Below, piece after piece: positions 3,292 through 60,354 of a stretch of DNA of 64,000 bases. The stretch spans positions 52,925,561 through 52,989,560 of the forward strand of contig NC_088775.1 of the NCBI RefSeq assembly GCF_954871325.1, written 5' to 3'. The translations under genes were made by a program, and so were the position numbers. The stretch comes from Gordionus sp. m RMFG-2023 (taxonomy: Eukaryota > Nematomorpha > Gordioida > Chordodea > Parachordodidae). How positions within the stretch are numbered: the stretch's first letter is position 1; the number at the start of each line of letters is the position of its first letter. The notes below the pieces were generated by a model. The model did not search any database. It saw only the letters and a program-made list of their open reading frames with translations, and was not told where the DNA came from.

Positions 3292-5759
3292 AAGTCCGTG
3301 AAGTTGGCGGAACGATGTGAGAATCAATTAACAAAACCTATGCCAATATTTAGAGTCCTAATTGATCTTCAAACCAAACATCAGCGGAATCAAAGGTTAA
3401 TGAGTTATAAGCAAAATAAGGAAAGTGTGAAATTTTGAAGCTGGCGGAACGATTTGAGGATCAATTACCGAAACCTATAGCATTGTGTAGCCCGTTAATT
3501 GATCCTAATTGATCTTCTAACCGGAAAGCAGCGGACTGAACCGTTACTGAGTTATGAGCAAAATAAGAAAGTGTTGGCACTTTGCCAAAACCGAATAAAA
3601 TATAATGATCTGAAACTTGGCAATTATGTAGTATTCAATATGAACATTAATAATCTCCAAGCTGGATATCGGTAACACTAACCGCAACCGAGTTATAACC
3701 GTTTTAAAAATGTGAAGTTAGCGGAATTTTTTTTAAAAGTGAGGATCAATTACCGAAATTTATGCCAGAGTGTAAAGCGTTAATTGATCCTCTAGAATCC
3801 TTAACCGCATACCAACGGATTAAACCATTGGTGAGTTATGAGCAAAATAACAAATGTTGGCACTTTGCCAAAACCGATAATAAAAAGGAGTATGTTTTGA
3901 AACTTGGCAATTATAGTATTCAATATGTACGTTAATAATCCCCAAACCGGTATCGGTATCACTAACCGTAACCGAGCTATATCCGTTTTTAAAAAGTGTA
4001 GTTAGCAGAATTATTTTTAGAAAATGAGGATCAATTACCGAAAATTATGGCAACGTGTAGTTCGTTAATTGATCCTCCAGAATCTTTATACCAGCGGAAT
4101 GAACCATTCGTGAGTTATGAGCAAAATAGTTAGCGGCTTTTCTAGAGAAGTCGAAACCCTTCTCGGTAGGTAGAGTTACAATGTCAATTTCTATGTGTAT
4201 ACTGCAGAGAAGATAGAGATCCGAAAATCCCTATTTACCAACTTCATAGTATTTTCAATCCTATTCTTATCATATTATGTTTATATATATGAATAATTAT
4301 ATCTATCTCTAGAAATTATCAAAACGACTAAAAAAAGTTATTAATATAAATATAAGTCCAATTCCATTATGTGTTCGAAAATATAATTCTCAAGCGTGAT
4401 CTCTTTTAGTTTTTTTATCAACGTAACACTAAAAACTGATATAAATTTCATCTTTAGAGCATCCATAATTTTTCAGGTCTAAATTTGACTTTGAAATATT
4501 ATTTGTTGATAACTCACTACCCTTTCACTTATTGACATTCCGTTTAAAGAAGATAGAGGATCAATTAAAGCACAAAATATTGACTTTAACTAAAAAATAA
4601 TTGCTCGAATTTAAAAATTTGACAAAATGCCAAAACTTTTCTATTTTGCTCATAACTGAACGGTTTATTCTGCTGGTATACGGTTTAAAATTTCTGGAGT
4701 ATCAATTAACGGGCTAAACATTGGCATAATTATTGATCCTTTTTAAAAATTACGCTAACTTCACGTATTTAAAACAACGGTTATAACTCAGTAACGGTTA
4801 GTGATACCGATATCCGGTTTAGAGATTTTTAATGCACATATTGAATACTAAATAATTGCCAAGTTTCAAAACATAATCTTTTTTATTATCGGTTTTGGCA
4901 AAGTGCCAACATTTTTTATTTTGCTCATAACTCACGAATGGTTCATGCCGCTGGTATATAGTTTAAAAATTCCGGAGGATTAATTAACGGGCTACACATT
5001 GGCTTAATTTTCGGTAATTGATCTTCACTTTCTAAAAATAATTCAGTAAACTTCACGCTTTTAAACGGTTATAACTCGATAACTGTTAGTGATACCGATA
5101 TCCAGTTTAGAGATTTTTAATGCACAATTGAATACTAAATAATTTCTAAGTTTCAAAACATAATCTTTTTATGATCGGTTTTGGAAAAGTGCCAACATTT
5201 TTTATATTGCTCATAACTCACGAACGGTTTATTCCGCTGGTATATGGTTTAAAGATTCTGGAGAATCAATTAACGGGCTACACTTAGGCATAAATTTCGG
5301 TAATTGATTCTCACTTTTAAAAAAAATTCCGCTAACTTCACGTTTTAAAACGTTATAACTCGGTTTCGGCTAGTGATACCGATATCCAGCTTGGAGATTA
5401 TTAATGTACATATTCAATACTATATAATTGCCAAATTTCAGATCATTATCTTTTATATTTTTGGTTTTGGCTAAGTGCCAACACTTTCTTATTTTGCCTC
5501 ATAACTCAGTAACGGTTCATTCCGCTGCTTTCCGGATATAAGATCAATTAGGATCAATTAACGGGCTACACAATGGTATAGGCTTCGGTAATTGATCCTC
5601 ATATCGTTCCGCCAGCTTCAAAATTTCATACTTTCCTTATTTTGCTTATAACTCATTAACCTTTGATTGATGTTTGGTTTGAAGATCAATTAGGACTCTA
5701 AATATTGGCATAGGTTTTGTTAATTGATTCTCACATCGTTCCGCATACTTCACGAACCT
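3292..5759. mobile_element. Foldback element, 2.47 kb, perfect 9-base target duplication
   Basis: A long inverted repeat. The left end AAGTCCGTGAAG..GCGGAACG is matched in reverse complement by the right end AGGTTCGTGAAG..GCGGAACG. The direct repeat CGTTCATAT flanks it at 3283-3291 and 5760-5768. Both arms consist of about three diverged units of roughly 300 bases, each with GAGTTATGAGCAAAATA, a GGCACTTTGCCAAAACC block and a GATCAATTA block. The centre (about 4150-4560) is single copy. There is no ORF, so it must have been moved by another element's transposase. A 9-base target site suits Mutator-like or FB-type elements; the family is unproven. The inserted site lies inside a LINE. Confidence 0.85.
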
Positions 5760-26070: not shown

Positions 26071-27645
26071 GGGTAATTCCATGACAAATTAACCACGATT
26101 CGGCCGACCCCCTTTGAATTTTATTAAATTTGGTAAGTAAAGAAAGGTTAGTGTAGTTAAGAAATAGCCAAAATTTTAGCCTCGTAACATTTATATTTTT
26201 TGAGATATTAGGGTTCAAAGTGGCAAAAATGACGTATTTTTACCATTATCTGCCTTAATTCAATTAAGCATATCTTAAAAACTACATAATTTTAAATAAC
26301 AAATTTAATATCAAAATTACGTACAAAGATTCTACTTTCAGATAAAAAAAAATTTTAAATTTTTTTCCAATTTCCGGTCACTTTATTTAATATGCAAGGA
26401 CTAAAAAAGATTTTTTGGAAATAATACAACCTTCAATTTTTATAAAAAATTTAAAAGACATTACTAAACTCTTCCTTTATATTTCTAAAAAAAATTAGTC
26501 TGGGACGCGGCCATCTTCATTCTCAAAATCGATAAAAATGTTTAGAAAAGTGTTTAAATATTTTCCCAAAAGGCGTCTTTGTATAAAATTATATATTAAT
26601 CCGTTTTTAATGGTTTTTCTTAAACTATTTGATATAATTAAAAGGATTATTCATCTTGTAAATGAAAATAACAATAAATGGGGCTTTCATTCAATTATAG
26701 AAATTATCTATCGATAAAAGAAATATGGCCGTAGTTATACATTGTTGTCACAAGAAAGTAAATGAGCTACCGAAAGATTAGAATCTTTTAAAAGTGAGTT
26801 ATTTTTTAAATTTATATTATATCAATTATTTTTAATATTTAGGGGGCCATTTATGAAATGCACAAGATTCTGATTCATATATTCAAAAACTATAAACTTG
26901 GTTGAATATATTTTATTAATATTCATTAAATATATGTTATAGGGGCAAAATTTTTTATAATAAATAAAGTAATAAATTGAATTTCTTTATCGATAGATAA
27001 TTTCTATAATTGAATGAAAGCCCCATTTATTGTTATTTTCACTTACAAGATGAATAATTCTTTAATTTATATCAAATAGTTCAAAAAAAACCATTAAAAA
27101 CTGATTAATATATAATTCTATACAAAGACACCCTCTTTCGGGAAAATATTTATATACTTTTCTAAACATTTTTATTGATTTTGAAAATGAAGATGGCCTC
27201 GTCCCGGATCAATTTTTTTTTAGAAATATAAAGGAAGAGTTTAGTAATGTCTACTAAATTTTTTTAAAAAATTGAAGGTCTTATTATTTCCAAAATATAG
27301 TTTTCACCTTGCATATTTAATAAAATGACCGGAAATTGGAAAAAAATTAAAAAAATTTTTTTTATCTGAAAGTAGAATCTTTGTACGTAATTTTGATATT
27401 AAATTTGTTATTTACAATTATATAGTTTTTAAGATATGCTTAATTGAATGAAGGCAGTTAATGGTAAAAATACGTCATTTTTGCCACTTTGAACCCTAAT
27501 ATCTCCAAAAATATAAATGCTACGAAGCTAAAATTTTGGCTATTTCTTAACTACACTAACCTTTCTTTGATTACCAAATTTTAAAAAAATCGAAGGGGGT
27601 CGGCCGAAAATCTCATTTTTTTTGCACATTTGACATGAAATGACC
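26071..27645. mobile_element. Foldback element with GGGTAATTCCATG ends, ~1.6 kb
   Basis: A left arm of about 650 bases (26071-26730) is repeated inverted as 26965-27645 around a ~230-base centre. Matching blocks include CGGCCGACCCCCTT near both ends, CACTTTGAACCCTAATATCT with its complement, and TAAATGGGGCTTTCATTCAA with its complement. The ends resemble those of the long-TIR transposon at 29748. It is probably a non-autonomous derivative mobilised by that transposase. Confidence 0.85.
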
Positions 27646-27699
27646 CCTTACTCTTATGATAGTTGTTGCCTGTTATTTTAAAATAATAAATTTATATTA

Positions 27700-29747: not shown

Positions 29748-32700
29748 GGGTAATTCCATAGATAACGGCCGACCTTTTTAATTTCGATAAAAATCTGCAT
29801 ACTGAGAAAATAAGATTCTTAAAAATTGAGATAAGAAAAAATAATGATGTTAAAATTAAAATTATATATCATTTTGTAACTATTAGAGGCCTTTTATTAA
29901 ATATAAAGAATTTTTTTTAATATTGTTGTGGTTTTTATTTACGTTATAAACTTTAAACTCAGGTGTTTCGCTTTCCAAATTTTTTTGAATTTAATATTTT
30001 CTTATTCACTAACACTATATCTATTCAGTAAAAAATTTTAACTTGGGACAGCCATGGATTTTTTAGTTTTTGCGATTTAAAAAATCTAAAAAATAAATAT
30101 TTTTTTAAAAAATAGATGTCGCTCGTTTTGTGAAAATTATTTTTTTTTTAAAAACTTTTTTCCATTTTTAAACATAAATATTAAGATTTTCCAGCATTAA
30201 TATCATGAAAAAAATATTATTTAGATCGTTTGATAGGCTTACTTATTATTAGTACATATTGATAACTTGTAAAAATTAGTTGTTTTTATAATAAATGATT
30301 AAATCTTAGTTACGATTTCGATATCTCCTACAAGAAATATTTATAATGTATAAATATAAATGCGCAAATCCTTTTAAATCTAAACACTTTAATTATAAAA
30401 AAACTTGCGTAAAGTTATGACGGGGGTGACACTTTCCAAACATTGAGGCGGGACACAATATTTATGATAAATGTCGTAAACGTTTATCACAAAAAATATT
30501 GAAAATATAAATTCTGATAAGCGAATATGTAAATAACATCAATTGATACAATCAATATAACTTTAAACAAATTGGAATATCTCCTATTAAGAAAAAAAAC
30601 TAACCGAAAAAATTTATCAAAAAAAGGTAGCGAAAATATCATAAGCTATTTCAGATATAATAATTAACAATCCAGAATCGGATACAAAAGACAATAATGA
30701 TATACTCAATATAAATCACAATATCCTAATTTATCAAAAAATAAACAAATATCAATTGCTGACCATTCTACCTCCTAATTGGAGCGCAAATAAAATAAAA
30801 AAGGAATTCAACGCTACATATCATATGGCTTATAATTCCAAAATCATTTTAGAAGAAAAGGGGATTCTTTCAACTCCAAATCGAAAGCCTGCAAAATATC
30901 TCAATCAAAAAACAGTTGATATTGTTAAAAAAATTTTGCAGTGATGAAGTTAGTAAAAAATTGCATATCTATCATTGAAAAGGGGGAATGAGTGAACGCT
31001 CAAAAAGGTTAGTTCTTAATAATTTAAAAGATGTATATAATCTTTTTAAGGTGATTAATTCAAACATAACTATTGTATTTTCGAAATTTGCTAGCTTAAG
31101 ACCAAAAAATTGTATATTAGCAGTGGCTAGCTGAACACATAGTGTGTGCATTTGTAGCATACACCAGAATGAAACTTATGATTTTAGGCTGTGAATTAGC
31201 AACATTGACTAAAAATGGTGAGGATATATTAACAACTTATAGAGATGTTATAGGCAGAATGACTTGCAATCCCCCGTTACCCACTTGTTATATTGGTGAC
31301 TGCAACGAGTGTCCTGGCTCGGCACTCTTAAAAGAACGCATCGAAAAATTATTTATAAAAAATGATATAGCTCTTGTTAAGTTTAAACAGTGGGTTTCGG
31401 TAGATAGAACAACTCTGGAGACTATTTCTCAATCCTCAGACGAATTTATTAATTACTTTTTCGATAAAATGAATATTCTCATAAGCCATTCATTTATTTG
31501 TGAACAACAAAGTTCTTTTCACAATATCCTTAAAAATAGTTTAGAAAATAATGTATCTAATTATTTGTGACTTTTCAGAAATTATTCCTTTATTATCCAA
31601 GACGAAGTTCAGGGTTATCATTGGACAACTTCGCAAGTTATGTTGCATCCATTCTCGATTTATTATATAATAGGAGATCAAATAAACAGTCTAAGTTTTG
31701 TAGTAATATTGGAATCCTTAATTCATAATACTGTTTTATTCCATTTATTCCAATCACATTTGATTCATTTAAAAAAAAAAAATTCGACACTCCACCAGAA
31801 AAAATTCACTACTTTTCTGATGGTTCAGCAGGAATATAAAAAGAGGAAAACTTCATCAATGTTTGCTACCATGAAATCGATTTTGATGTTCAAGCAGAAT
31901 GTCATTTTTTTCCTACGGCACATTGTAGAAGTGCCTGCGACGGCATAGGCGGCACAGTAAAAAGATTTTATACTGATCAAATAATTACACCTTTACAATT
32001 TTATAAATATATGGAAGAGCATATAAAAGGTATAAATTTTTCTTATACCACCATACCAGAGTATGAGGAAGAAGAGATAAGGCTAAGTGAGAGGTTTAGT
32101 AAATCTATCTCAATACCTGGGACACAAAAAATTCACGTAGTGTTTCCGATTGGTTTAACTAATCTCAACACTAAACTATATTCTAGCAGACATTTATTAT
32201 GGAAAATATAGTATATCCACGTGAGGATCTTTTGATTGAGGATCTTTTAATCGATGAGATTAGAGGATATATAAACTGTGTGTATGAAAACGATTGGTGG
32301 TTAGGATTTGTACAAGAAGTGAATTTAATAAGAGAAGAAATAAAAATTAATTTCTTAACCCTAAAAGACCAGCAAATTCATTTGTTTATCCAGCGGCACA
32401 AGATCTCCTTTTCAAACCAAAAAATAATATCTTAACAATAGTTAGAGAATCAACGGCTACTGGGCGTACATATTATTTACCTCAAAATTATCAGGAGTCA
32501 AAAAAACTAAATTTAATGAAAAACCGAAAATAGGTATGATCTTTCATGAATTTTAATTTATCTATTATATTTACCAAATTAATAAAATATAAAAGAAAAA
32601 AATGATTATAACCGCAGCTAAATAATCTCATTTCATGAATCTAAAAAATCTTATTATTTATGTTAAAATGACATATAACTTATATTTATATAATCATTAT

Positions 32701-32897
32701 TTTTTAACTTATCTCAATCTTAAAAAATCGTATTTTCCGAAAAAAGATCATTTTTGGCACTTTTAACAATTGATATCTCAGGACCTATTAAAATTTTGAA
32801 TTCATTGCTTTCTAATGATATTCTCTCACTATGCAAAATTTTAAAATTAATAAGGTCGGGCCGAAAAGTTATCGCTTTGGTATAGAATTACCCATTC
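29748..32897. mobile_element. Long-TIR DNA transposon of unplaced family, copy 1 (~3.15 kb)
   Basis: The ends GGGTAATTCCATA and (inverted) GGGTAATTCTATA are followed by matching blocks (CGGCCGACCTTTTTAATTTC on the left, TTTCGGCCCGACCTTATTAA inverted on the right). Compared with copy 2, whose right end is fuller, the inverted repeat is about 490 bases long (left 29748 to about 30235); copy 1's right end seems to have lost 250-300 bases. It carries one plus-strand gene. No target duplication is visible, and the two flanks are LINE pieces in opposite orientations, suggesting recombination through the element. Confidence 0.8.
30580..32530 (+). pseudogene. Transposase-like gene of the long-TIR transposon, copy 1
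   Basis: A plus-strand gene in successive frames. 30756-30944 has PPNWSANKIKKEF, a helix-turn-helix-like start. About 31077-31130 has FSKFASLRPKNC; 31142-31570 has a Cys-rich stretch (CYIGDCNECPGSALLKERI) and FKQWVSVDRTTLE; then the motifs CDFSE, FSDG and CDGIGGTVKR; then 32011-32435 with ERFSKSISIPGTQKIHVVF and a tail. This order matches an uncharacterised protein family repeated in many insect and other invertebrate genomes. The spaced conserved Asp residues (DFSE, FSDG, CDGIGG) suggest a DDE/D-type transposase, but that is inference. Several frame changes show decay; some are shared with copy 2. Confidence 0.7.
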
Positions 32898-33165: not shown

Positions 33166-34320
33166 CAAACACGTTTACTATAAATTCAGGGTAAGAATAT
33201 TGTATTTTTTAATATAGATATTTAAATTATGAGTTTTTCAATCAGCTATATCAACCATAATCTTATAATTTTGTTCAGCAATTTGAAAAGCGGTTACTGG
33301 AACCTTTAAAAAATAATTTTAAAAAATATCTTCTGATTAATAAACAATACCTTAGCCAGTAATGTGATTGCCCCTTATGTGTTACTGACGGAGAGCAAAG
33401 TATATATTTAGAATTTTCATATATGCATACATTATTTTGAAGATATTTGTAAATCTAATTATTTATAAAATATTTCTGTTTTAAAATAAAATATTAACAA
33501 AATATATATTTAATATCGTAAAAAAAGTAAAACCATGAGAATCAATTTGAAGAGATGGTCACATTTGAAGGTCTAACGGTAAAAAATTTTTTTAATTATA
33601 TTATTTGATTACATTAATTATATCAAGTTATTTTATATTTTATCTTAAATATAATTAAATTAAAAATTATTTGATGAAAATAATTTATAAAACAAAACTA
33701 TGATAACTTTTTTAGCACAAAGAGTAAAGATTTCGCCATTTTTATTAATTCTAACATTAAACAATTATTTATTAAATACAACGCTACCATTCCTTCTAAA
33801 GAACCAGCTAAAAACTTATTCAGCATCGATAAAAATGTTTTTACTGATAGGAGGGGATTGATAAAAACTTTGAAAATGTTTTATTGTTAAAATCAAATAA
33901 TATTTAGCCTTGATGTTAATTTGTACCTATTGCTTTTATTATTAAATGTATTTGTTAATTATAAATAAATAAAATTTTAAAATGCATAATATCGAATATG
34001 GGGAAAATATATTTGCATAGACATCGTTGGATATGTTTAGAAATATTTTAAGTATCGTTAACAAGTTTTATCATATAAACATTTAATTAGATCACTTAAA
34101 TCTTTTTAACTTCTTAAACTTTCTTCTATATTTTTGTTTTTCTCGTCTTTCCTTCTCTTATATCATTAAAAAAAATAGATAATAACTTGATTCGGAGCAA
34201 GTTTGATTAATCGAAAATCCCACTTTGCACATCCACCAGATGAGAATTAGTAGATAATTGGTACTTTATAATTGATTTAGAAAATATTAAATTATTTATA
34301 CTATTTAAATAAAAAAATGA
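33166..34320. other. AT-rich spacer, nothing recognised
   Basis: No ORF of note, no repeat ends. Confidence 0.5.
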
Positions 34321-34949
34321 TATTTTCGGCCCGATCCCCTTCGATTTTTGTAAAATTTGGTAAGCAAAGAAAAGTTATTGTAATTAAGAAATAACCAAAA
34401 CTTTAGTCTGGTAACATTTATATTTTTGGAGATATTAGGGTTCAAAATGACAAAAATGACCTATTTTTATCATTATCTGCCTTCATTCAATTAAACATAT
34501 CTTAAAAACTATTTAATTGTAAATAACAAATTTAATATCAAAATTACGTACAAAGATTATACTCTTAGATAAAAAACTTCATTGATTTTTCCAATTTTCG
34601 GCCATTTTATTTAATATATAAGAACTAAAAACAATTTTTTGGAATAATACGATCTTCAATTTTTATAAAAAAAATTATACCTTCTTTTAAAATTATAAAA
34701 AAAAACCGATCTGAGACGAGGCGAGCTTCATTCAAAATCGATAAAAATGATTAGAAAAGTGTATAAATATTTTCCCGAAATGGGGCATCTTTGTATAAAA
34801 TTATTTATTAATCAGTTTTTATTGGTTTTTCTAAAACTATTTGATATAATTTAAAGGATTATTCATCTTGTAAGTGAAAATAATAAATGGGGATTTCAAT
34901 CAATTATAGAAATTGTCTATCGTAAAGGAAATTCAATTTATTACATTAT

Positions 34950-36420
34950 TTATAATTATTCAAACTTAACAATTAGATTTTCGAAATTTTCTAGCTTAAG
35001 ATCAAAAAATTGTATATTAGCAGGGGCTAGCGGAACACATAGTGTATGCGTTTGTAGCATATACCAATATATTAAACTTATGATTTTAGGCTGTGAATTA
35101 GCAACATTGACTAAAAATGGTGAGGATATATTAACAACTTATAGAGATGTTATAGGCAGAATGACTTGCAATCCCCCGTTACCCACTTGTTATATTGGTG
35201 ACTGCAACGAGTGTCCTGGCTCGGCACTCTTAAAAGAACGCATCGAAAAATTATTTATAAAAAATAGCTCTTGTTAAGTTTAAACAGTGGGTTTCGGTAG
35301 ATAGAACAACTCTGGAGACTATTTCTCAATCCTCAGACGAATTTATTAATTACTTTTTCGATAAAATGAATATTCTCATAAGCCATTCATTTATTTGTGA
35401 ACAACAAAGTTCTTTTCACAATATCCTTAAAAATAGTTTAGAAAATAATGTATCTAATTATTTGTGACTTTTCAGAAATTATTCCTTTATTATCCAAGAC
35501 GAAGTTCAGGGTTATCATTGGACAACTTCGCAAGTTATGTTGCATCCATTCTCGATTTATTATATAATAGGAGATCAAATAAACAGTCTAAGTTTTGTAG
35601 TAATATTGGAATCCTTAATTCATAATACTGTTTTATTCCATTTATTCCAATCACATTTGATTCATTTAAAAAAAAAAAATTCGACACTCCACCAGAAAAA
35701 AATCACTACTTTTCTGATGGTTCAGCAGCGCAATATAAAAATAATAGTGTTCAAGCAGAATAGCATTTTTTTCCTACGGCACATGGTAAAAGTACCTGCG
35801 ACGGCATAGGCGGCACAGTAAAACGGTTAGTTGCCAAGGCAAGCTTACAAAGACCTTATACTGATCATAAATTACACCTTTACATTTTATAAATAAACGG
35901 AAGAGCATATAAAAGGTATAAATATTTCTTATGCCACTATACCAGAGTATGAGGAAGAAGAGATAAGGCTAAGTGAGAGATTTAGTAAATCTATCACAAT
36001 ACCAGGGAAACAAAAAATTCATGTAGTGTTTCCGATTGGCTTAACTAAACTCAACACTAAACTATATTATAATTCGCATACATTTATTGTGGAGAATATA
36101 GTATATCCAGGTGAGGATCCTGTGATTGAGGATCTGTTAATTGATGAAATTATAGGATATGAAACATGTGCATATGAAAACGATTGGTGATTAGGATTTG
36201 TACAAGAAGTGAATGTAATTAGAGATGAAGTAAAAATTAATTTTCTTCACCCTAAAGGATCAGCAAATTCTTTTGTCTATCCAGCTGCACAAGATATCCT
36301 TTTCATACCAAAAAATAATATTTTAACAATAGTTAGCCCATCAACGGCTAATGGGCGTACATATAATAAAACGAAATTATCATGGCGTCAAAAAAACTAA
36401 ATTTAATGAAAAACCAAAAA
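34950..36420 (+). pseudogene. Transposase-like gene, copy 2
   Basis: The same gene as at 30.6-32.5 kb, lacking the first ~400 bases. FSKFSSLRSKNC-like sequence (~34978) leads into the Cys-rich ORF 35080-35277, the CDFSE and FSDG regions, CDGIGGTVKR (about 35805) and the tail ORF 36209-36400. Between 35074 and 35728 it is almost identical to copy 1 (one 5-base deletion and one substitution seen), including a shared frameshift between CDFSE and the following NYSF. Outside that patch identity falls to roughly 88-90 percent by eye. It is non-functional. Confidence 0.75.
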
Positions 36421-36748
36421 TAGGTAATATCTTTCATGAATTTTAATTTATCTATTATATCTTCAAATTATATAAAACAATTAAAAATTTTTATAAAAAA
36501 AAATGATTATAACCGCAGCTAAATAATCTCATTTCATGATATTGCTGGAAAATCTTATTATTTATGTTTAAAAATGAAAAAAAGTTTAAAAAAATAATAA
36601 TTATAACAAAACACGTTATTTTATAAAAGAGCGCCATCTATTTTTGAAAAAAATATTTATTGTTTGATTTTTTACTTCATAATAACTAAAAAACCCATGG
36701 CTGTCCCAAGTTTAAATTTTTTTTATGAATAGATATAAAGGTAGAGAA

Positions 36749-39700
36749 CAGGGTTGCCATGTCTCCCCCCATCAGCGGGAGACTTCCGCAATTTTTTAAT
36801 TTACACGCAGACATTTCTCTCCCGCAAAACTACCACAATTGGAAATCTCCAGCAAAAATCTACCGCAATTTTTTAAGTTCTCCTGCAATTTTTTTTTTAG
36901 TATTTTAACATTTTTAATATGTAAATAATAATTTTGAGAGACATTAATTGATTATTTTTATATTTTTAAAATAATTTTAAGTATTTATTCGAAAAACATG
37001 CCTAGTTTGTAAATTTCTTTCTATCCTGTTTTATTTTTATCCAATAATAAATCAACATCATTTCATTCATATAAGTCAGTACAGGGGAGTATATTAACAT
37101 CGATTGCAATACAAAAATATTCTCAAAAATAATAAATAATACAGATGCAACTACATTTGAGGAAATCGTATACATCTATCATGTAGTTCAACATTCACAG
37201 AGCTATATCATCACAATGTGGGTCGAATATTTTTCTCATAATATTTAACGACTCCAATATAAGTGCAAACCTTACTTGTGGCAGAACAAAAATGAGCAAG
37301 GCTATCAAAAGTGTTTTAGTACCTGAATCCTAGAGGTCAATTCTAGACTATTTGAAAGATGGGCATCCATATGCAATTCTAACAGATGCATCTAATAAGA
37401 GAAATATTAAAACATTTCCCTCGATCCTTCGCTATTTCAACAAGATTAAGAACATTTCAATAAAACTGTTAAGATTTTTTCCTCAGATAGTGAAAAATCC
37501 AACGATGTAGCTAACCACATAATGTTAAATATAGCTGATTCAGGGTTATCAATGATTTGCATGTCAGCTTTCTGCGCTGATAATGCCTCTGTAAATTTTG
37601 GCAAAAACCTAAGTTACCGATTTGAGGCAGCACAATAATGAATTAATACCAATTGGCTGTATATGCCATATATTACATTATTCTTGCAAGAAGGCAATGA
37701 ATATACTATCTGAGGATGTCGAATTAATTGTGATGAAATGTTTTAACGAATTTAAATCAACTAAAAGAGTTAAAAAATTAAAAGAGTTGATGGTGGTCTG
37801 AATTGGAATGGTGTGAGTTGTTGTGATATATACCTATCAGGTGGTTGTCATAATACCTGTCATCGATAGAATTTTAAAATTTTACAAACCTTAAAAAAAA
37901 TACTTCTTAAATAGAGATTTTAAAAGCTGTCCTAAAATTTTGAAAAATTTTTTCGAGTATGAAATGGCAGAAGTATATTTGGGATTTGTTTCACATGTAG
38001 GAAATCTACATAATGCAATTAATATTCCTTTGGAATCAGAATATTCTTTATTAAAAAAAGATTCACAAAATCATGCTACAGCTCTGTTCATCTCTACAGT
38101 TAAAAATTGATAATAAATTTTATGGCGCTATTGCTAAAAATATATTAAAATAATAAAACTCTAATTAATACATTTTTAAATGAAGCAGATATTTTTATTG
38201 ACAATTAGAATTTACAATCAAAATTTGATTTTAATAACTCTATTAACAAATGTATAAATATTATGACATTTGAACAACCATCAATTGATGGTTTTTATAA
38301 TTTAATAAATATATTAAAAATACCGAAAGACATTGATTTCTTGTTTGCGGAGATAAATACTCAAAGTTAGATGGTCTAAAAGCAGATGAGAAATGAGTAG
38401 AATTTTTTCGTAATAACGATAAATCTCCATGCTTGGAAAAAATATGCGAGTATGTCTTTTCCTTACCTCATTCTAAAGCCTTATCTGAGCGCATTTTTAG
38501 CCCGATGAGGACTGCCTGGAAAAAGGAGAGAAATCGGATTGCTTTAACAACATTAGAGGCCGAGCAAATATATAATATGTCATGCCAGGAATTTTATAAA
38601 TATCTCAATAACGACGGTAAACATTTAGTTCTATTATTTAAATCTCAAATAAAATATAATTAAGTTTTAGAATGGCGCCATAAAATTATTATCAATTTTT
38701 AACTGTAAAGATGAACACATCTGCAGCATAATTTTGTGAATCTTTGTTAAGATTCTTCTGATTGAAACTACTCATTAACAGCATGTAGTAGATATCCTAC
38801 TGTGAAATCATTCCTAAAAATACCTCTGCCATTCATTATTGAAAAATAATCTTTATTTAAGAAATATTTTTTTAAAGATTTATAAAATTTTAAAATTCTA
38901 TATGGCGGGTATTAGGAACATATCGCAACCAACATTGTGCAGACTCAATTCTGTAAATACTCTCTGTTTTTACCAAATTCACTGAGGCATTATCAGATCA
39001 GAAAGATGACATGCAATTTATTGATAATCTCTAATTTGCTCTATTTACCATTATATGGTTAGGTTAGCTATGTCTTTGGATTTTTCACTATTTGAGGGGA
39101 AAAAATTTAATAGTTTTATTGAAACGACCTTAATTTTGTTAAACTAGCGGAGGAAAAATATTTCCCTTACTAGATGCATCTGTTAGAATTGCATATGTAT
39201 GCCCATTTTTCAAATCGTCAAGAATTGACCTCCTGGATTTAGGTCCTAAAGCATTGGTGATAGCCTTGCTCATTTTTGTTCTACAATTATAGTTTTCATT
39301 TATATTAGAGTCGTTAAATAATATGAGGAAATTTACCAACATTGTGATGATAAGTATCTCTGTTACTACAAGATAAGTGATTACCATTGCCGCAATTGTA
39401 GTTGCATCTGTATTATTTGTTATTTTTGGAGTACCTTATTATGTATTTAAACTAGATACGTGATAATTAAGCGCCTATCCCTATAATGTTATACACACAC
39501 GATAGATTTCCAATTGCGGTCGTTTTGCGGGACATTCGCATAAAATATATTTTTAATTGTAAAATTAAAATCGTTTTTTTTATAAAATTTTTTCTTGTTT
39601 ACCTTTTATATTTAAAAAAAATCGTTGGTTTTTTTTATAAATTAATATTTTAATAAATCAAGATGTTATTTTATTTTGACCGACCTTGTATTATAAACTA

Positions 39701-39857
39701 ATTTTAAAAGATAATAGACGAATAATAAAATCAATTCAAAATCCCGGCCGAAGGCCGGCACTTTTGCAATTTTTATATTTCTACCGCAATTTTCATATTT
39801 CTCCCGCATAATATCAAATTTCTCCCGCAATTTGAAAATTTTGACCTGGCAACTCTG
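36749..39857. mobile_element. hAT transposon with large internal inverted duplication, 3.1 kb
   Basis: The ends CAGGGTTGCCA and (inverted) CAGAGTTGCCA carry subterminal TCTCCCGCAATTT repeats at both ends. The flanks GTAGAGAA and TTAGAATA match at only five of eight positions, an eroded TSD at best. Inside, about 37095-38140 is repeated inverted at about 38665-39440 around a ~520-base centre that encodes the dimerisation domain. It is inserted in the right inverted repeat of transposon copy 2. Confidence 0.8.
37250..38663 (+). pseudogene. hAT transposase relic with inverted partial copy
   Basis: The plus strand has MSKAIKSVL, then HPYAILTDASNKRNIK (first catalytic segment) at about 37290-37410, then CICHILHYSCKKAMN near 37650. 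The C-terminal dimerisation domain at 38433-38663 reads YVFSLPHSKALSERIFSPMR. The first region occurs again on the minus strand at 39387-39139 (MSKAITNALGPKSRRSILDD, AILTDASSKGN), so the N-terminal half has been copied in inverted orientation. Many stops and frame changes are present; it is dead. Confidence 0.75.
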
Positions 39858-40248
39858 TTAGAATAAGAAAATATTAAATTCAAAAAAATTTGGAAAGCGA
39901 AACACCTAGAATTTTTATGTTTAAAATTTATAACGTAAATAAAAACCGCAACAATATTATATTAAAAAAATCCTTAATATTTAATAAAAGGCCTTTAATA
40001 GAGTTACAAAATGACATATAACTTATATTTTTAAAATCATTATTTTTTAATTTATCTCTTTTAAAATCGTATTTTTCGAAAAAAGGTCATTTTTGGCACT
40101 TTTGACCATTGATATCTCAGGAACTATGACTAGCTAAAATTTTAGATTTGATGCTTTCTAATGATATTTTCTCAGTATGAAAAATTTATCGAAATTAAAA
40201 AGGTCGGGCCGAAAAGTTATCGATTTGGTATGGAATTACTCCGATATC

Positions 40249-46711: not shown

Positions 46712-46885
46712 CAGTAGTGTTGTTAAATTGCCGGGTCGGGTCAGCTTGGCCGAAAATCCAGCATGGCTTGAGCCGAAAAAACGACCCTAAACCCGAGCCA
46801 ACCGATTTAGCCATAGATCAGACCCGATCCGACCCAATGCGGCTTGCTGGGTTGGCTAACTGGGTTAAAAAATATATATATTGAA
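46712..46885. mobile_element. hAT terminus, CAGTAGTGTTGTTAAATT type, GC-rich subterminus
   Basis: CAGTAGTGTTGTTAAATT is followed by CCGGGTCGGGTC, GGCTTGAGCCG and CCCGAGCCAACC blocks. The facing terminus was not identified; the satellite at 46.9-49.1 kb may be this element's interior. Confidence 0.6.
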
Positions 46886-46889
46886 AATT

Positions 46890-49110
46890 AAACCAGTTTA
46901 TTTTAATCCGGGTTCAATGTTTTTGATATTAGAAAGATGTTCAAAAATCTTTGGTTCTAGTAATAAATTGGCACTGTTATTATATCTTATTCCACGAGAT
47001 AAAAATAAATTGTAAAATTTTTTTAAAACATATCTTAAGCCTAGTTAAAAGTTTTAGATACTAGAAAGATGTTCCTATGTTCCTAAACCTTTTGGTCTTG
47101 TAATAAATGGACACTGCTGTTATAATTTAATCCGTGAGGAATATATTTAAGAATTTTTTTTAAGGCGTTGTTTTAATCCTAGTTAAATGTTAATGATATT
47201 AGGAGGATGTTCTAAAACCTTTGAGTCTAGCAATTAATTGGCACTGCCATTATATTTTGCTCCACAAACAAAAAATAAATTGTGATAATTTTAAAAAAAT
47301 TTATCTTAAGCCTAGTAAAGGTTTTTGATACTAAAGATGTTCTTAAACCTTTGGGTCTTGTAATAAATAGGCATTGCTATTATATTTTGCTCCACAAGGA
47401 AAAAATAGATTGTAAAAATTTTTTAAAATTTATCTTTAGACTAATTAAAAGTTTTTGATACTAGAACGATGTTCTTAAACCTTTGGGTCTTGTCATAAAT
47501 TAACACGCTGTTATATTTTACTCCATGAGGAAAATTTACGATTTTTTTTAAGACGTTGTTTTAAACCTAGTTAATTGTTTATGATATTAGGAAGATGTTC
47601 TAAAACCTTTGGATCTAGTATTTGCATTGCCATTATATTTTACGTTATAATTTACTCCATGAAGAATTTTTTTAAGACGTTGTTTTAAGCCTCGTTAAAT
47701 GTTAATGATATTAGGAGGATGTTCTAAAACCTTTGAAAATAAATTGTGAAAATTTTTAAAAAATTTATCTTAAGCCTAGTTAAAAGTTTTTGATATTAGA
47801 ACGATGTTCTTATCTTGTAATAAATTTGCACTGCCATTATATTTTACCACGGGGAAAAAATAAATGCGAAAATTTTTAAAAATATATTTTAGGAGTAGTT
47901 TAAGGTTTTTGATACTATGAAGATGTTCTTAAACCTATGGGTCTTGTAATAAATTGGCACTGCTGTTATATTTTACCCACGAGGAAAAAAATTTATGAAT
48001 TTTTTTAAGACATTATTATAAACCTTTAGAAATGTTTGTGATATTATAAAGATGTTCCAAAACTTAGGGTCTAGTAATTAATTGGCACTTCCATTAGATT
48101 TTACTCCATGAGGAACTAAATTATAAATTTTTCTAAAATTTTTATCTTAAACTTAGATTAAAGTATAGGATACTAAAAAATGTTCAAGAACTTTTGGATC
48201 TAGTAATAAATTGGCATTGCCATTTTATTTTACCTAAGGAGAAAAAAAATTATGAAATATTTATTAAATTTTGTTTTAAGCCAAGTTAAGTATTTTACAA
48301 TAAGATGTTCAAAACTTCTGGGTCTAGTAATAAATTGGCACCAGCATTTTAAATTACTCCACGAGGGAAAATTAATTATGAATTTTTTTTTAAATTATGT
48401 TTTATAATTAAAAGTTTTTGATACTAAAAAATGTTCAAAAATCTTTGGTTCTAGTAATAAATTGGCACTGCCCTAATATTTTATCCCACGAGCAAAAATA
48501 AATTATCTGGAAAAGATAAATTATATAATTTTAAAAAAAATTATTTTAAGCCTAGTTAAATGTTTGTACTATAAAGATGTTCTAAAACATCTGAATTCAC
48601 AAAGAAATTTCTAGTGCTAATATTATTTAACCCCCGCGTAAAATATAAAATTATATATTTATGTTTTGAATAAGGTTCATATAGTATTAACATACTGCTA
48701 TTCTGATTCACTCCACGAGGAATGTTAAAATATAAATATTTTTATAAATTTGTTATGAAACTAGTTAAAAGTTATTTATACTATTAATTTTTTTTTTAAC
48801 CTTTGATTTCATAAAGAGATTCCCATTGACATTATTTTTTATAATTCCCTACGTTAAAATTTAGAAATATTAAAAAATATATATTTATGTTTTGAACCCA
48901 ATAGTAAGTTTGGGTCTAATAATAAGTTGTCGCTATCATTCTATTTAATCCACGAGATAATTAAAGATTTAAAAAATTTTACAAACTTTGTTTTGTGCCT
49001 AATTAAAAGTTTTTGATATTAGAAAAATGTTCCAAGGCCCTAGTGTCTAGAATAAATTAATATTGCATTTTTTTTAACTTGAATCTAGTTTAAATTTTTT
49101 GGCAATAGAA
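46890..49110. repeat. Satellite array, ~128-base unit, about 16 copies
   Basis: The motif GGTCTWGTAATAAATTGGCA recurs near 46952, 47090, 47212, 47352, 47480, 47605, 47815, 47937, 48064, 48192, 48320 and 48440, then more diverged to about 49050. Each unit also holds a TTTTGATACTARAAAGATGTTC block and a CCACGAGGAAAAAT block. Units vary from about 118 to 140 bases by indels and diverge towards the right. Confidence 0.9.
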
Positions 49111-52735: not shown

Positions 52736-53331
52736 GAATTCGCAATTTTCGCGGTCATGCGCTCGCTATAATAATTTCGCGCAAATACATTCGCGGTAGA
52801 AAATTCGCTATAAATGGTTCGCGATTAAAGTTTCGCTATAACGAGTTCGCGATCAAAGTTTCGCTAAAATGTATTCGCTCTAAAGTATTCGAGGTTTAGG
52901 TTTCGCGGAAATAAACTATAATGAGTTCGCGATCAAAGTTTCGCCAAAATGTATTTGCTATAAAGTATTCGCGGTTAAAGTTTCGCGAAAATAAATTCGC
53001 TATAACGAGTTCGCGATAAAAGTTTCGCTAAAATGTATTCGCTATAAAGTATTCGCAGTTAAGGTTTCGCTGAAATAAATTCGCTATAACGAGTTCGCGA
53101 TCAAAGTTTCGCTAGAATGTATTCGCTATAAAGTATTCGCGGTTAAGGTTTCGCGGAAATAAACTAGCGATAATAAGTTCGCGATATTGTCTTCGCTATA
53201 AATGTTTCGCGGAAAAAAATTTGCGGAATTGGTTTCGCGATATTACCTTCGCTATAAAATTCCTTCGCGATAAACGACATTCGCGATAAAAGTTTCGCGA
53301 AAAAGTGTTTCGCGATAAAAGTTTCGCGGAA
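52736..53331. repeat. CpG-dense TTCGC minisatellite
   Basis: TTCGC or TTCGCG occurs about every 13-15 bases for ~600 bases, separated by AT-rich linkers (ATAAAG, ATCAAAG, AAAATGTA). A higher-order unit of about 83 bases beginning GAGTTCGCGAT is seen near 52844, 52925, 53008 and 53091. Both arms of TTCGCGAA palindromes occur. No reading frame or family was recognised. Confidence 0.9.
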
Positions 53332-53885: not shown

Positions 53886-54490
53886 AGCTTGAGTTTATTT
53901 TAAATTTAGAGCCAAAAATTATTTTTATGTTATTGAGAAATTTTAAATAATAATGTAGAATTTTATTTATTTATTTTTAGTGAAATAATTTATTTTATTT
54001 ATATTTTATTTAATGCAAATAATATGTTTTGATTATAACAAAAATGGATTTATTTATTTGATTTTTTTTTTTAAATAAAAAAAAATTAATATTTTTGAAC
54101 TAAAAATTTTAAGCAAAAAATATTTTTTGAAGTACAAAAATATTTTTGAAACATATTTTGCTGATTTTTTGATGAAATTTTATTCATTTGTTTTTTTATT
54201 CTTTTCTTAATTATATCATAAATAAATAATCTTTTAGGTCAAATCTTCTATAGTTTTTTTATATTATTTTTATAAATATATCTATATTTTAAGTTTATTA
54301 TTAGAGGTGGCTTTTTCTAAATAATTTTTTTATAAATATATTTATATTTTAAGAATATTAAAAGAGGTGGTTTTTCTTTTTCTAAATAATTTTTTTCTAA
54401 ATAATTTTTTCCTAAATATATCTATATTTTAAGTATATTAAAAGAGGAAATTTTTCTAAATAATTTTTTTATAAATATTTATGTCAATAA
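53886..54490. other. AT-rich stretch with short tandem repeats
   Basis: At about 54230-54480 three to four degenerate units (TAAATATATCTATATTTTAAG, AGAGG, TTTTTCTAAATAA) follow one another. No coding signal. Confidence 0.5.
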
Positions 54491-54605
54491 TGCGACAATT
54501 GTCATATGCGTTATTTTTTAAGATTTTTGAAATTTTTGGACACAAAAAGGTTATAATATAATTTATATTGTAAAGATATTATTGTTCTAATATGTATAAA
54601 ATATA
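54491..54605. repeat. Single unit of the GACAATTGTC satellite, left of the LTR element
   Basis: GACAATTGTCAT at 54494, then AAGATTTTTGAAATTTTTGGAC, matches the units at 60.9-61.4 kb. The LTR element therefore lies within this array. Confidence 0.65.
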
Positions 54606-54940
54606 TATATATATAAGCCTCAAATGTCAATCAGATAGATTGTAGACATCTGATTGGAGAAAAAAAAATATTAATTATTATAATTATATATTTTTTTGAA
54701 GATATATTTTTTTGAATTATTCATCATTTTAAAAATTTTGTAAAATTTAAAAAGAAAAAATATAATTATTATGAATTTATTTTTTCGATATATTTTTTGA
54801 TTGAAAATATTTTTTTTGTTTTTAATGAGTACGAAATAAAGTTTTTAAAGATTGTAAAATTCGGGAATCCAAGGATTAAAATTGTACCAATAAGGAAAAT
54901 ATATTCAGGAATCAAAAGATTTTGTGTTAATACTTAAAAA
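54606..54940 (+). repeat. 5' LTR of the Ty3/gypsy fossil
   Basis: It matches 60355-60730. It begins at or just before a TATA-like TATATATAAG, followed by a hairpin (54627-54657), and ends TACTTAAAAA. It seems to lack most of a U3, so the true left end may be lost. Confidence 0.8.
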
Positions 54941-54944
54941 GTGT

Positions 54945-54972
54945 TGACCGTACTCCCAGGATTCGAACCTGG
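54945..54972 (+). promoter_or_regulatory. Extended primer-binding site, complementary to a tRNA 3' end and full T arm
   Basis: Four bases after the 5' LTR, the sequence is the complement of a tRNA 3' end: TGA for CCA (one mismatch), one discriminator base, a 7-base acceptor strand (CGTACTC) and then the whole 17-base T arm (CCAGG-ATTCGAA-CCTGG). Similarity to a tRNA stops there; no anticodon arm or A box follows. The position and the boundary support a primer-binding site, not a tRNA gene. The primer tRNA was not identified. Confidence 0.75.
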
Positions 54973-55209
54973 AAATTCAAGGGTATTCATTATTTTAAGG
55001 TAAAAAAAAACTCCTTTTTATTTTACATATTATATGTTACCTTAGGACACAACGCAATAATAACGTTTTTGTTGTTTGATTTTTTTTTTTGAATTTTAAT
55101 TAACAAAATAGTTTGAAAATTTTTTTTTAGGTTAGTTCGATTAACACCCAGGCTTTATAATATAATATAACTTTTTGTGATAACGTAATTTTAAATTTCG
55201 TAATATGCG

Positions 55210-55985
55210 ATGGTTGTGTATTTCGATAAGTATTCTGAGCCTACTTTTATTAATAAAATTGCCGTCTTTAAGGATATGGGTTATAAAATATTGTATCAGA
55301 ACCTTAATGAATTGGATATAGGTCATCACTTAGTTACATTAGAATTAATAATAATTCTATATTTAATATATATACTTTTGAAATTTTTATGTGGAAAATG
55401 TACTTTGGTTGCGACCAAGGTATATGGTAATTGGAAAAAGGACACTCTGGTGTCTGTTAATTGTTTTAAGAGAATTTCGGACTTGGAAAGTAGTTTAAAT
55501 GGAATTTTAAATGAAATCAAGAACGGCAAACCAGGAATGGTTGAAACGATGAAAGATAATAACGATGATCGTTTGGAATTTGTGGAGAGATCAGTGGTTA
55601 TCCTCCAGGAATTAAAAGATATAAAAGAATCTATTAAAGATATTTATAGTGATGTATCCAGGTTGATTATTATGAATAATCAGGGTATAGGAAGCAATTC
55701 GGTGATGGAATTATTTCGAATGGAAAGAGTTTTCCAAAGATTATTGCTGACATAATTTGTAATAGGTGCGGTTACAAGGGTCATTATTCTAAAACCTGTA
55801 TTGTAAAGGAACAGAATTTTAGAATGGGTTTTCCATTGCAAAGATCTAGTGGAGAAAATTCCAATGTAAGGAAGATTTCAGGCCTAGATGTAAATAAAGT
55901 TGATTCGTTGAAATTTGGATGGGTCTCGTATATGTTTTAAATGTAAAGAGACGGGACATATAGCTATAAATTGTGATTTACACTG
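55210..55985 (+). pseudogene. gag region of the Ty3/gypsy fossil with CCHC boxes
   Basis: A 181-residue frame at 55210-55755, helix-rich and without recognisable motifs, is followed by two zinc-knuckle motifs, CNRCGYKGHYSKTC (about 55758) and CFKCKETGHIAINC (about 55927). Two CCHC boxes are characteristic of nucleocapsid regions. The region is broken. Confidence 0.75.
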
Positions 55986-56176
55986 ACTATATGATAGCAA
56001 ATGTAATCATATAGCAGTTAGAATACAGGGAAATAAAAATTTTAAGAAAGTATACTATAATAATAAAAAGAGATGGGATTCTCATAATTTTAATGGTTTT
56101 AATGAAAATGTTTGTTATCATGAAGATATAGTTAAAACGGTTGATTATAGTTTTAATGTGAATATAATGAAAAATA

Positions 56177-56830
56177 ATGCTTTTATGGGAAAAATTTCCT
56201 GGTAGCATTGTGAAATATACAAATAGAAAAAATGTCGATAATTTTAAATGGGAGAATTATCCTCGGGATATTATTAAAAAATATAGTTATATTAGTAAAA
56301 AGCCTCGAAATTCCGAGTTGAATTTAGGAGGAAATTTAAATTCTAATGAAATGCATATTTCAGAGGAAATATATAGCGATCAGCCCCTTAAAACTTGTGA
56401 AATTTTAAGGACTGATGGAATAAATAGACTGGATCAATGTCCTAGGGTTAACTTGAGAATTGACTGCTGGTATATTGATATGCTATTTGACACTGGTGGG
56501 AGCATTTCGATAATGTCTTGTGAAAATTTTTATAAATATTGGCCTAATGGCGTGATTATTAAGGAAAATATGTGTTTAAAACAGTTCGATGGTTCTGAAA
56601 TTGAGGTTTTGGGTAAAACTCAATGGTATGTGGTTTTTAATGATACTATCATAAGTTTAGATTTATGGATAGTAGGAAAAGCCGTGGAAACTATTATGGG
56701 GTGGGATTGGATTACCACAATTGGACCCTATAATAATTATTGGAATTTATTTATTATTGATAGCGAATTGGCTAGTGATAATGTTAAAAGAAAATTAATG
56801 ACGGATAATATCCGAAGTGAACTTCAGTAG
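56177..56830 (+). pseudogene. Aspartic protease region of the Ty3/gypsy fossil
   Basis: It carries the retropepsin signature MLFDTGGSISIMS (about 56480-56520) and, about 70 residues on, IMGWDWITTIG, which resembles the ALIGxDxL region of such proteases. Part of the same fossil. Confidence 0.8.
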
Positions 56831-56844
56831 GGATATCTAAATTA

Positions 56845-57696
56845 TTGAACGATGGAAATAGGATTGTCGTTAGTAATAATTTTATTGAAATTCCCGAAAA
56901 GGTAGGGATCAGTTCTGATCATACAGAAATAAATGGTAAAATTGATAGGGATCAATTTATGGAAATTGAAATCAATGGATTAAAAAAGATCGATCTGGCT
57001 ATACCTATTTTGTTTAGAAAATATGGTATAATTTTTGAAGAAAAATTAGGACGTTTAAATGATTATCAAGTAGAAGTTAAACTTAAAGAGGGTTTTTCAC
57101 CCATCTTTTTGGCTTGCCGAAGAGTTCCTTTTGAGTGGAAAAGGGAAATCGATGAAGAATTGGATCAATGGGTTAGAGATGGCATCATTATTCCTGTGGA
57201 ATATAGTGAGTGGGCCACACCATTGGTACCTGTTAGAAAATCGAATGGAAAGTTAAGGCTATGTGCTGATTTCCGTGTAACCTTAAATAGATGGGTAGTG
57301 GAGGTAAAATATCCATTGCCTAGGATTGAGGAGATTTTGGCCAGTTTAAAAGGTGCCAAGTATTTTCCCAAAGTTGATTTTTCTTCGGCTTATTTGCAAT
57401 TGCCTTTGAAAGAAGAAATTCATAAATTATTTACTATAACGACTCCGAAAGGATTATTTGCCTTTTGTAGGCTACCGTTTGGATTAAGTGTGTCAGCGCC
57501 GATATTTCAGCGCACTATAGCATCCGTTTTCCAGGGCCTGGAAGGAGTTTATTATTATATGGATGATGTGTTGGTGACTGCTATAACACCAGAGCAACAT
57601 AATCAACGTTTGGAAGAGGTTTTCAAGCGGATTCGTGATAAGGGTCTGAGGGCCAGCAAGGAAAAGAGTGTTCTTGGGGTAACGGAAGTTATCTAA
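56845..57696 (+). pseudogene. Reverse transcriptase region of the Ty3/gypsy fossil
   Basis: RT motifs appear in order: the KLRLCADFR region, KVDFSSAYLQLPL, FCRLPFGLSVSAPIFQR and the active site YYYMDDVLV. This is the Ty3/gypsy arrangement. Part of a broken element. Confidence 0.9.
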
Positions 57697-57717
57697 TTAG
57701 GACATCGGACAAATGGA

Positions 57718-58260
57718 ATGGAGGTGAAACCTCTGGAAAAAAATTTAAAAAATATAACAAATATGAATCCGCCAACCAATAAAGCGGAATTGCAATCATT
57801 TTTGGGTATGGTAAATTATTATCATCGTTTTGTGGAGGATTTTGCAAAAGTGGCATCTCCATTGTATGGTTTATTAAAAAAAGGCGTTCATTTTGTGTAG
57901 AAAATTGAACAGAAAAATGCTTTTGATATTTTAAAAGGAAAGATTGGTGAGGAACCGATTTTGGTATGTTTTAACAATGATTTAGAGATCATATTGGCAG
58001 TTGATGCATCCAACAAGGGGGTTGGAGGTGCATTGTTACATTTAATGGATGGTGTGGAAAGACCCATCATATTTTTTTCGAGAGTTTAAAGGGAAGTGGA
58101 AACTAGATATTCGGTTATTGAACAAGAAGCCCTAGCGGTTATCTTTGGATTAACCAAATGTCCTGAATATTTGATCGGTAAAAGATTTATAATTTACACG
58201 GGTCAAGCCGTTAATTCATTTATTTAAAAAAGATAATAAAGAGTTAATGCTGTCTCCCCG
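57718..58260 (+). pseudogene. RT thumb and RNase H region of the Ty3/gypsy fossil
   Basis: It contains LQSFLGMVNYYHRFVEDFAK (the link between RT and RNase H), then LAVDASNKGVGGALLH and FFSRV, matching RNase H of gypsy elements. Broken. Confidence 0.8.
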
Positions 58261-58269
58261 GTTGCAACG

Positions 58270-59352
58270 TTGGTGTTACTGGTGGGAAGTTTTAATGTGG
58301 AAATCAGATATCGCAGGGGCAAGAAAAATTGTTTGCCTAATATTTTATCTAGGTTAGGATCCAGTGAAGGGGATCTTGACGGTAACAAAAGTATAATGGT
58401 GAATGAAGACAGGGTATTAATTTGTTCTTTATCATATACGTTAAAGGGTGGTCCTACGATTTGGGAGGATCTTAAAAGCAATACCTTAAGGGATAAGGAA
58501 TTGGGTCGAATAAATTATTTTTGACGGGACAAGAGCCGTGGAAAAATAGTAGTAAAGTTTATAAAAAGATTGAAAAGGAATTGTCCATAGTGGATGATTG
58601 TTTGATGCGGGGTAATAGAGCCGTAATTCCGTTGAAATTACGGAGTAAAATTGTACGATTGTTGCATGCAGGACATCAGGGTCGAGATTTGGGCTCGTGA
58701 GTATGTATGGTGGCCTGGAATGAGCAATGATATTGAAAAGATTATGAGGAGTTGTGTTCCATGTAATTCGTGTGCCGCTATGCCCCGGAAGGAAATAGGC
58801 AGTTATTGGCCGAGACCTGAAAAGCCGTGGGAGCGTATTCACGTGGATTTCTTTGACTTAAACAAGAAGTCGTATTTTTTAGTTGTTGATGCATATTCTA
58901 AGTGGATTGAATATGAAGAAGTTCATGGATTAACCACTAGAATTGTTATCAAATTATCACAAAGGTTATGGGCTAGATTTGGGATTCCAAAGACAATAGT
59001 GTCTGATGGAGGTCCGGCCTTTGTAAGTGAAAGTTTCAGAGATTTTTGTAATGCATTGGAAATTAAACACGTATTAGCTCCACCATATCATCCCAGTTCC
59101 AATGGACAGGCGGAGAGAATGGTAGCTATCGTGAAAAATTGGATTAAAAAGGCCAAACAAGAAAGTAATGATGTTTGGATGGCCCATTTATATTATAATA
59201 ATTCCAGAAACCGAGTGGGAATTACTCCGGTGGAGTTATTTTTGGGAAGAAGGACCAGAATGCCGTTGGATTTCTTAAAATCCAAAGATGAAGCGGGTGT
59301 ACCTTCGGTTGATAGGATTGTAATAAAATATCCTGTGGGGAGAATTATATAG
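58270..59352 (+). pseudogene. Integrase region of the Ty3/gypsy fossil
   Basis: An N-terminal zinc-binding region (LLHAGHQG, then CVPCNSC) precedes the catalytic core with HVDFFDL, IVSDGGPAFVSE and PYHPSSNGQAERMV, the D,D(35)E pattern. Integrase after RNase H places the element in Ty3/gypsy, not Ty1/copia. Broken. Confidence 0.88.
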
Positions 59353-60354
59353 GCCTGTTTGTTTGATAACAAAGGGAAGAAATGGGAAAAGGTCGTATAG
59401 TAGAAAACCTTGGTTCCAAATTAAATGAAATTTTGCTAATAAATGGAATTACGGTAATCAGACATAATGATCACGTAAGGTTAGGAGAAAGTAAGAAAGG
59501 ATAAAGATAATATGGAAATGCTTAAATATTAATCTTATCTGATTATTTTTCCAGAATCTTAGAGTATTGGAATCATATAGCATAATATAAGATGAATAAT
59601 GAAAATTTATTGTAGTAATATAGCATAATATGTTAAATATGAATAATGAAAATATTGATTCTTTTGGGATACTCTGATAACGATACTTGCTTAGTATTGG
59701 GAGTAAGATACTATCATAAAGATAGGGGTAGGCTTATTTGTGATTAAGTGTTAATGGAATCCATTAAAGGATGCTTAATTGAAACTTTGAAAAGCCTGGA
59801 AAATAAAGGGATTTTATATTTCGGAGGGAGAACTCAACATCCTATAATTATACGAGCAGTTGTTTTTTTTTTCAAGGAAAGTAGAGAAAAAGTTAATAAA
59901 AAATGTAAATTTTTGTGATGGATGGTCAGTGGAAAAAGAAAAAGAAAGTTATGTTTTTTTGTTTTCACGGACGGTTTACTTTGATGTTGCTATGGTTATA
60001 AAGAAAAAAAATTCAAATTGTGTTAGACAATAAAAAGACTATAAACTTTGACCTTATGGTTGAACTAAGACTATAAACTTTGACCTTGTGATTGAACCAA
60101 TGGGATTCGCAAAAGTGAGAAGACAATTCTGGAAAAATTTTCGGTCGTTTCAATTGATGTTATGGAGGGCCAGCGTTATTCAGATCAAGCCAACGATTAA
60201 ATGCTGACTATCGTTATTCAAGTCAAGCCTGCAATCGCATGATGATTATCGGTACAACTAGTAATCAAGCTCAAGAGTATATAAATATGGAGTAAAAAGG
60301 GACAACTGGATATCCGTATTTTTCCTTATGAATACATTCTAAAGAAAAAAATTC
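59353..60354 (+). other. Non-coding 3' region of the Ty3/gypsy fossil
   Basis: No ORF. A purine tract at about 59931-59948 (GGAAAAAGAAAAAGAAAG) and another just before the 3' repeat (about 60341-60350) are both candidate polypurine tracts. There is a 32-base tandem duplication at 60037-60100 and a degenerate ~40-base duplication at 60165-60245. None of this region is found at the 5' end. Confidence 0.55.

Follow-up and report, generated by a model that had tools for sequence, protein, structure and literature searches.

The locus examined here lies in a 64,000-nucleotide stretch of the Gordionus sp. m RMFG-2023 genome (NC_088775.1, positions 52,925,561 to 52,989,560; hereafter the window), and raises the question of what kind of element carries a gene that recurs across invertebrates under no informative name. 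A first-pass annotation, made from the sequence alone, had read the element as a transposon with inverted ends and its protein as the transposase. Our analysis supports that reading. The element, copy 1, is very probably a DNA transposon of the cut-and-paste type, now dead, with a gene for a transposase of about 750–790 amino acids (aa) that has a catalytic triad of three aspartates (DDD). The evidence comprises terminal inverted repeats (TIRs), 4-bp target site duplications (TSDs), many copies, several related families with open genes, a conserved Asp triad and a predicted fold.

Copy 1 is a decayed element of 3146 bp on the plus strand (29748..32893), delimited by exact termini and by alignment to complete copies: GGGTAATTCCATA matches without error at 29748 (+), as does GGGTAATTCTATA at 32881-32893 (−). 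The inverted ends and the start given in the first-pass annotation are borne out, and its right limit of 32897 moves inward to 32893. Within the window the 13-mer terminus is no commoner than chance (9 occurrences at up to two mismatches, 6.1 expected), so the proof of the ends rests on other copies. The flanks of copy 1, CATC and ATTC, form no exact TSD. Alignment to the copy at locus L044, whose TIR measures 610 bp, places the left TIR at 29748..30215 (+, inner edge approximate), with about 96 bp lost after 29812. The right TIR has lost more than half of its length: where L044 has about 370 bp close to its right end, copy 1 has about 75 bp (32589-32664), and the remnant at 32664..32893 (−; aligned to L044 3371-3617) retains the outer part of about 247 bp, the inner part being mostly lost. 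Because of these losses, the two longest inverted matches of copy 1 against itself are short (73 and 44 bp, 82%).

We searched the 287-Mb assembly (267 contigs) with the well kept gene part 31169-32350 as a DNA query. Of 298 candidates 40 were scored, which yielded 44 matches and makes the copy counts lower bounds. The gene is present at at least 38 further loci besides two copies in the window. After merging by place, 40 loci were studied, namely the two window copies and 38 regions of about 6 kb, and a script recognised both ends in 24 of them. These two-ended copies (n = 24) are 3.1–4.6 kb long. In those that are well preserved, the TIRs measure about 600 bp: L039 has 610 bp at 99.3% identity and L034 has 602 bp at 98.7%. 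The long inverted repeat proposed earlier from a cross-copy comparison stands, at a greater length than the estimate of about 490 bp. A genome-wide search for the longer window-family end gave 220 occurrences at up to two mismatches, and 0 for a control. Among the 100 exact places listed for these ends, 12 pairs face inward at a spacing of 2.5–2.7 kb, a pattern that suggests a uniform shorter derivative.

An exact 4-bp duplication flanks 18 of the 24 two-ended loci, against 0.7 expected when the left flank of one locus is paired with the right flank of another. For other lengths the observed and expected numbers are 5 and 2.5 (2 bp), 2 and 0.9 (3 bp), 0 and 0.04 (5 bp), 0 and 0.2 (6 bp), and 0 and 0 for both 7 and 8 bp. 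The 18 duplications comprise 15 distinct tetramers, never TTAA, and the first base of the left flank is A in 16 of the 24 loci. Six loci have no exact duplication: the window copy, which was included in these counts, L023, L027, L030, L037 and L045. In L030 and L037 the two flanks differ at a single base.

As a query, the full-length homologue P0001 finds at least 60 matches in the same genome (57 of 3350 candidates scored), and several of them are open frames of 737–767 aa without a stop across the match. These belong to related families with their own termini. Family A, with ends GGGTTATTCCATGTCAAAT, has two copies that are 99.2% identical, L047 with a stop-free frame of 753 aa and L048 with a single stop in the match; the TIR of L047 is 580 bp at 93%, and both copies have a 4-bp TSD (TTTG and CATA). 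Family B (C2:9447457) encodes 767 aa without a stop, and has ends GGGTCATTCCATGACAAATC, TIRs that align over 787 columns at 89% and the duplication CTGC in its one copy. The target of this copy (L053/L054) is palindrome-like, with TAAATTATTCG ahead of the CTGC duplication and GTAATTTA behind it. Family D is a single copy with long TIRs and ends as in B; its flanks show no 4-bp duplication (0/1). The ends of A, B and D are related to the GGGTNATTCCAT of the window family, and a common terminal motif, GGGTNATTCCATRNCAAAT, is found at 787 places in the genome, a reversed control at 0. In family E (L049-L052, two copies), with the terminus taken as GGTGAATTCC, ATAT flanks both sides in both copies; the two have further flanking bases in common and are thus not independent, so they were left out of the TSD counts. 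Intact relatives devoid of TIRs would have spoken against the first-pass annotation; in this genome the stop-free genes of A and B lie between long TIRs and 4-bp TSDs.

The gene of copy 1 is a pseudogene of six frame pieces in three frames (about 30346..32533, +), which together match P0001 residues 172-787 by tblastn and translation, with a degraded Cys-rich N-terminal part. The segments singled out in the first-pass annotation are found at 31566-31580 (CDFSE), 31813-31824 (FSDG) and from 31936 (CDGIGGTVKR). They contain the codons, all on the plus strand, of three candidate catalytic aspartates: 31569..31571 (D458 of P0001), 31819..31821 (D543) and 31939..31941 (D584). In an alignment of 59 of 120 listed homologues, these positions are Asp in 58/59, 59/59 and 59/59 sequences. 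An AlphaFold model has an RNase H-like core in which the first and second Asp lie at the ends of strands 1 and 4, and the third in the helix past strand 5. The three residues occupy the catalytic positions in the predicted fold, in agreement with their proposed role in a transposase, and the structure check suggested in the first-pass annotation, which a fold lacking such a core would have failed, returned the core.

The 50 VIA rows listed for the structure comparison consist wholly of integrases, transposases and Argonautes. None of these 50 is a solved hAT, P, RAG/Transib or piggyBac transposase, an absence that excludes nothing. A Foldseek comparison with viral proteins returned two unnamed proteins at E ≤ 1e-3, followed by RNase HI, terminases and unrelated proteins. 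A sequence search of the PDB found no relatives, the one row at E 0.85 being taken as chance.

Homologues of the protein are widespread. At locus L009 a gene of the window subfamily is open over 596 codons, and its 572 aa from Met have at least 745 homologues at E ≤ 1e-3 (7991 candidates scored). Among the best 120 many are 750–800 aa long, none has a precomputed Pfam domain, and three carry a name given by the source, two 'hypothetical protein' and one 'transposase'. Neither the window pieces of this element nor L009 matched any Pfam family above its cut-off. Weak matches across the 59 aligned homologues are scattered and mutually discordant (25 of 65 families listed), the lowest E among those listed being 3.5e-4 for Toxin-deaminase in 5/59 members, and we take them as chance. 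Pattern searches for relatives of the alignment in viral and genome contig sets returned 91 and 56 matches, of which 0 were confirmed. A literature search did not find the peptide CDGIGGTVKR, and no description of the window family appeared among the papers listed in searches on transposon superfamilies, Sola or new superfamilies.

Copy 2, also reported in the first-pass annotation, is present in two parts. Its body, a transposase pseudogene without the 5' part, spans 34958..36748 (+; blastn to copy 1 and L011), and its right end, with terminus GGAATTACTC, spans 39860..40241 (+; blastn to L011 3454-3844). They are split by a hAT element at 36749..39859 (edges approximate, taken from the insertion edges), which has a Dimer_Tnp_hAT Pfam match at 38397-38663 and ends of the CAGGGTTG type. 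Part of another B/D-type end (34311..34960; blastn 83–86%, inverted repeats I2 and I4) adjoins copy 2 where its 5' part is cut off. A fold-back non-autonomous element at 26071..27646 has inverted arms and ends of the related families B and D (blastn 87–90%), and its flanks, CATA and CTTA, differ by one mismatch. When copies 1 and 2 are aligned, five consecutive 100-column blocks are 100% identical (one with 5 gap places) and the flanking blocks are 85–96% identical. This stretch of about 500 bp (31249-31748 in copy 1, about 35151-35646 in copy 2) suggests gene conversion between the adjacent dead copies. Elsewhere in the window there are repeat-unit arrays at 3294-5757 (about 280 bp, direct and inverted), 46869-49048 (about 130 bp), 52748-53250 (steps of 14–28 bp) and 60861-61391 (about 119 bp), and GC skew is strongly positive (0.29–0.36) across the 6 kb of 54001-60000.

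Three other accounts of the element were weighed. Long-TIR elements may carry genes besides their own, and the gene could accordingly be a passenger moved by another transposase; its catalytic role is read from a predicted structure, which leaves this account some room. It nevertheless sits poorly with the gene's frame of 753 codons, which no other frame exceeds in the roughly 4.2-kb element of family A, with the presence of the gene in element families whose ends differ, and with the RNase H-like core and conserved acidic triad of the model, and we consider it very unlikely. Spread of a fold-back or segmental repeat through recombination rather than transposition would be in keeping with the identical stretch shared by copies 1 and 2. 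Exact 4-bp duplications at differing sites in 18/24 copies speak against recombination alone, and we give this account next to no weight. A host gene is rejected on account of the repeated copies with duplications.

On the transposon reading, the long TIRs would be bound by the N-terminal Cys-rich finger together with a helical region. The RNase H-like core with D458, D543 and D584 (P0001 numbering) would cut at the GGGT ends and, judging from fold and duplications, join them to the target across a 4-bp stagger; repair of this stagger would yield the 4-bp duplications. Excision in such a cut-and-paste cycle would be double-stranded. Copies without an intact gene were presumably mobilised in trans, as the shared ends suggest, for example, for the fold-back element in the window.

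Proteins of this family number in the hundreds in public sequence (at least 745 matches to one query). Once they are tied to a catalytic fold and to elements with TIRs and 4-bp duplications, many 'uncharacterised genes' could be annotated as transposases. Such annotation would clean gene counts and studies of gene duplication and would flag open copies for tests of activity, and the terminal motif offers a handle for finding non-autonomous copies.

The family has the features of the class of DDE/D transposases with an RNase H-like fold, namely a predicted core with an acidic triad, TIRs and TSDs. Retroviral integrases and the Mos1 mariner transposase, which are among the best structural rows, share this core with it; the likeness is one of fold, as the PDB sequence search matched neither. 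The third catalytic residue of integrases is Glu, and the third candidate residue of the window family is Asp.

Among the named superfamilies with which it was compared, hAT is set aside: 8-bp TSDs occur in 0/24 loci, and Dimer_Tnp_hAT was found only in the nested element and not in the pieces of the element or L009. PiggyBac is rejected on its TTAA duplication, seen in 0/18. Kolobok shares with the window family a 4-bp TSD and 5'-RR ... YY-3' ends (GG ... CC here), but duplicates TTAA according to passages of PMC9587614. TTAA is found in 0/18 exact duplications, and the C/DxxH motif between the second D and the last triad residue is missing, its presumed counterpart in P0001 being A569-E-W-H572 (A-x-W-H). 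Ginger1 and Ginger2 agree in TSD length (4 or 4–5 bp in the relevant part of PMC10045372) and in the integrase-like fold, and Ginger carries the Gypsy-type integrase that gave it its name (PMC10741241, in part). The 4-bp TSD of the window family would suit them, but they were rejected, as no integrase-core Pfam match was found in L009 (E up to 10) or the window pieces; nor was an integrase-core family among the 25 of 65 Pfam families listed for the 59 homologues.

DUF7869 (PF25273) has 11 matches in this genome, at L057 and ten further places. Its proteins resemble the window family in SD followed by Q-x-K-N and in GH ahead of Asp, and their segments DSC-x-x-QN-K/R-N and GH ... EVD recall those around the second and third Asp of the triad; from these motifs they are perhaps another unnamed transposase. 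Kinship with the window family is not shown by profile comparison (hhalign probability about 2%), and the Pfam model is matched by neither the window pieces nor L009; for the 59 homologues the listing covers 25 of 65 weakly matched families.

Whether the family deserves a name of its own is a closer question. It could be a DDD transposase superfamily outside those named in Repbase. Its marks would be long TIRs starting with GGGTNATTCCAT, 4-bp duplications tolerant of sequence, and a DD40D transposase of 750–790 aa encoded in one frame, in which a Cys-rich finger at the N terminus and a second Cys-rich insert precede the catalytic core and a beta-rich domain lies at the C terminus. The Pfam and PDB results above, the discordance of the homologues' weak matches, the departure from the TTAA specificity of Kolobok and the very weak DUF7869 profile match (2%, E 0.021; 1.5%, E 0.035 on rerunning) all favour this. 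On the other side, the features tested equal those of Sola, and the source name 'transposase' for one of the three named homologues indicates that someone may already have a model. We regard a separate superfamily as possible, though short of an even chance; if it is real, it would rank among the commoner transposases so far absent from Pfam. The first-pass statement that no named superfamily applies holds as far as Pfam is concerned, where no convincing match was found, but unnamed status does not follow, since Sola fits by description.

Passages of PMC10741241 describe Sola elements as encoding a DDD transposase, with 4-bp TSDs, TIRs of 11–1124 bp and a size of mostly 2–9 kb. The window family corresponds on each point, with a DDD-type triad placed by the model, 4-bp TSDs in 18/24 copies, TIRs of about 600 bp and a size of 3.1–4.6 kb in the two-ended copies. 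That it is a group within Sola (Sola1, Sola2 or Sola3), lacking just an entry in the protein-family library, has in our view close to an even chance; the likeness is one of described features, which are not specific to Sola. We therefore describe the family as a DDD transposon of Sola-like properties, set beside Sola by description only.
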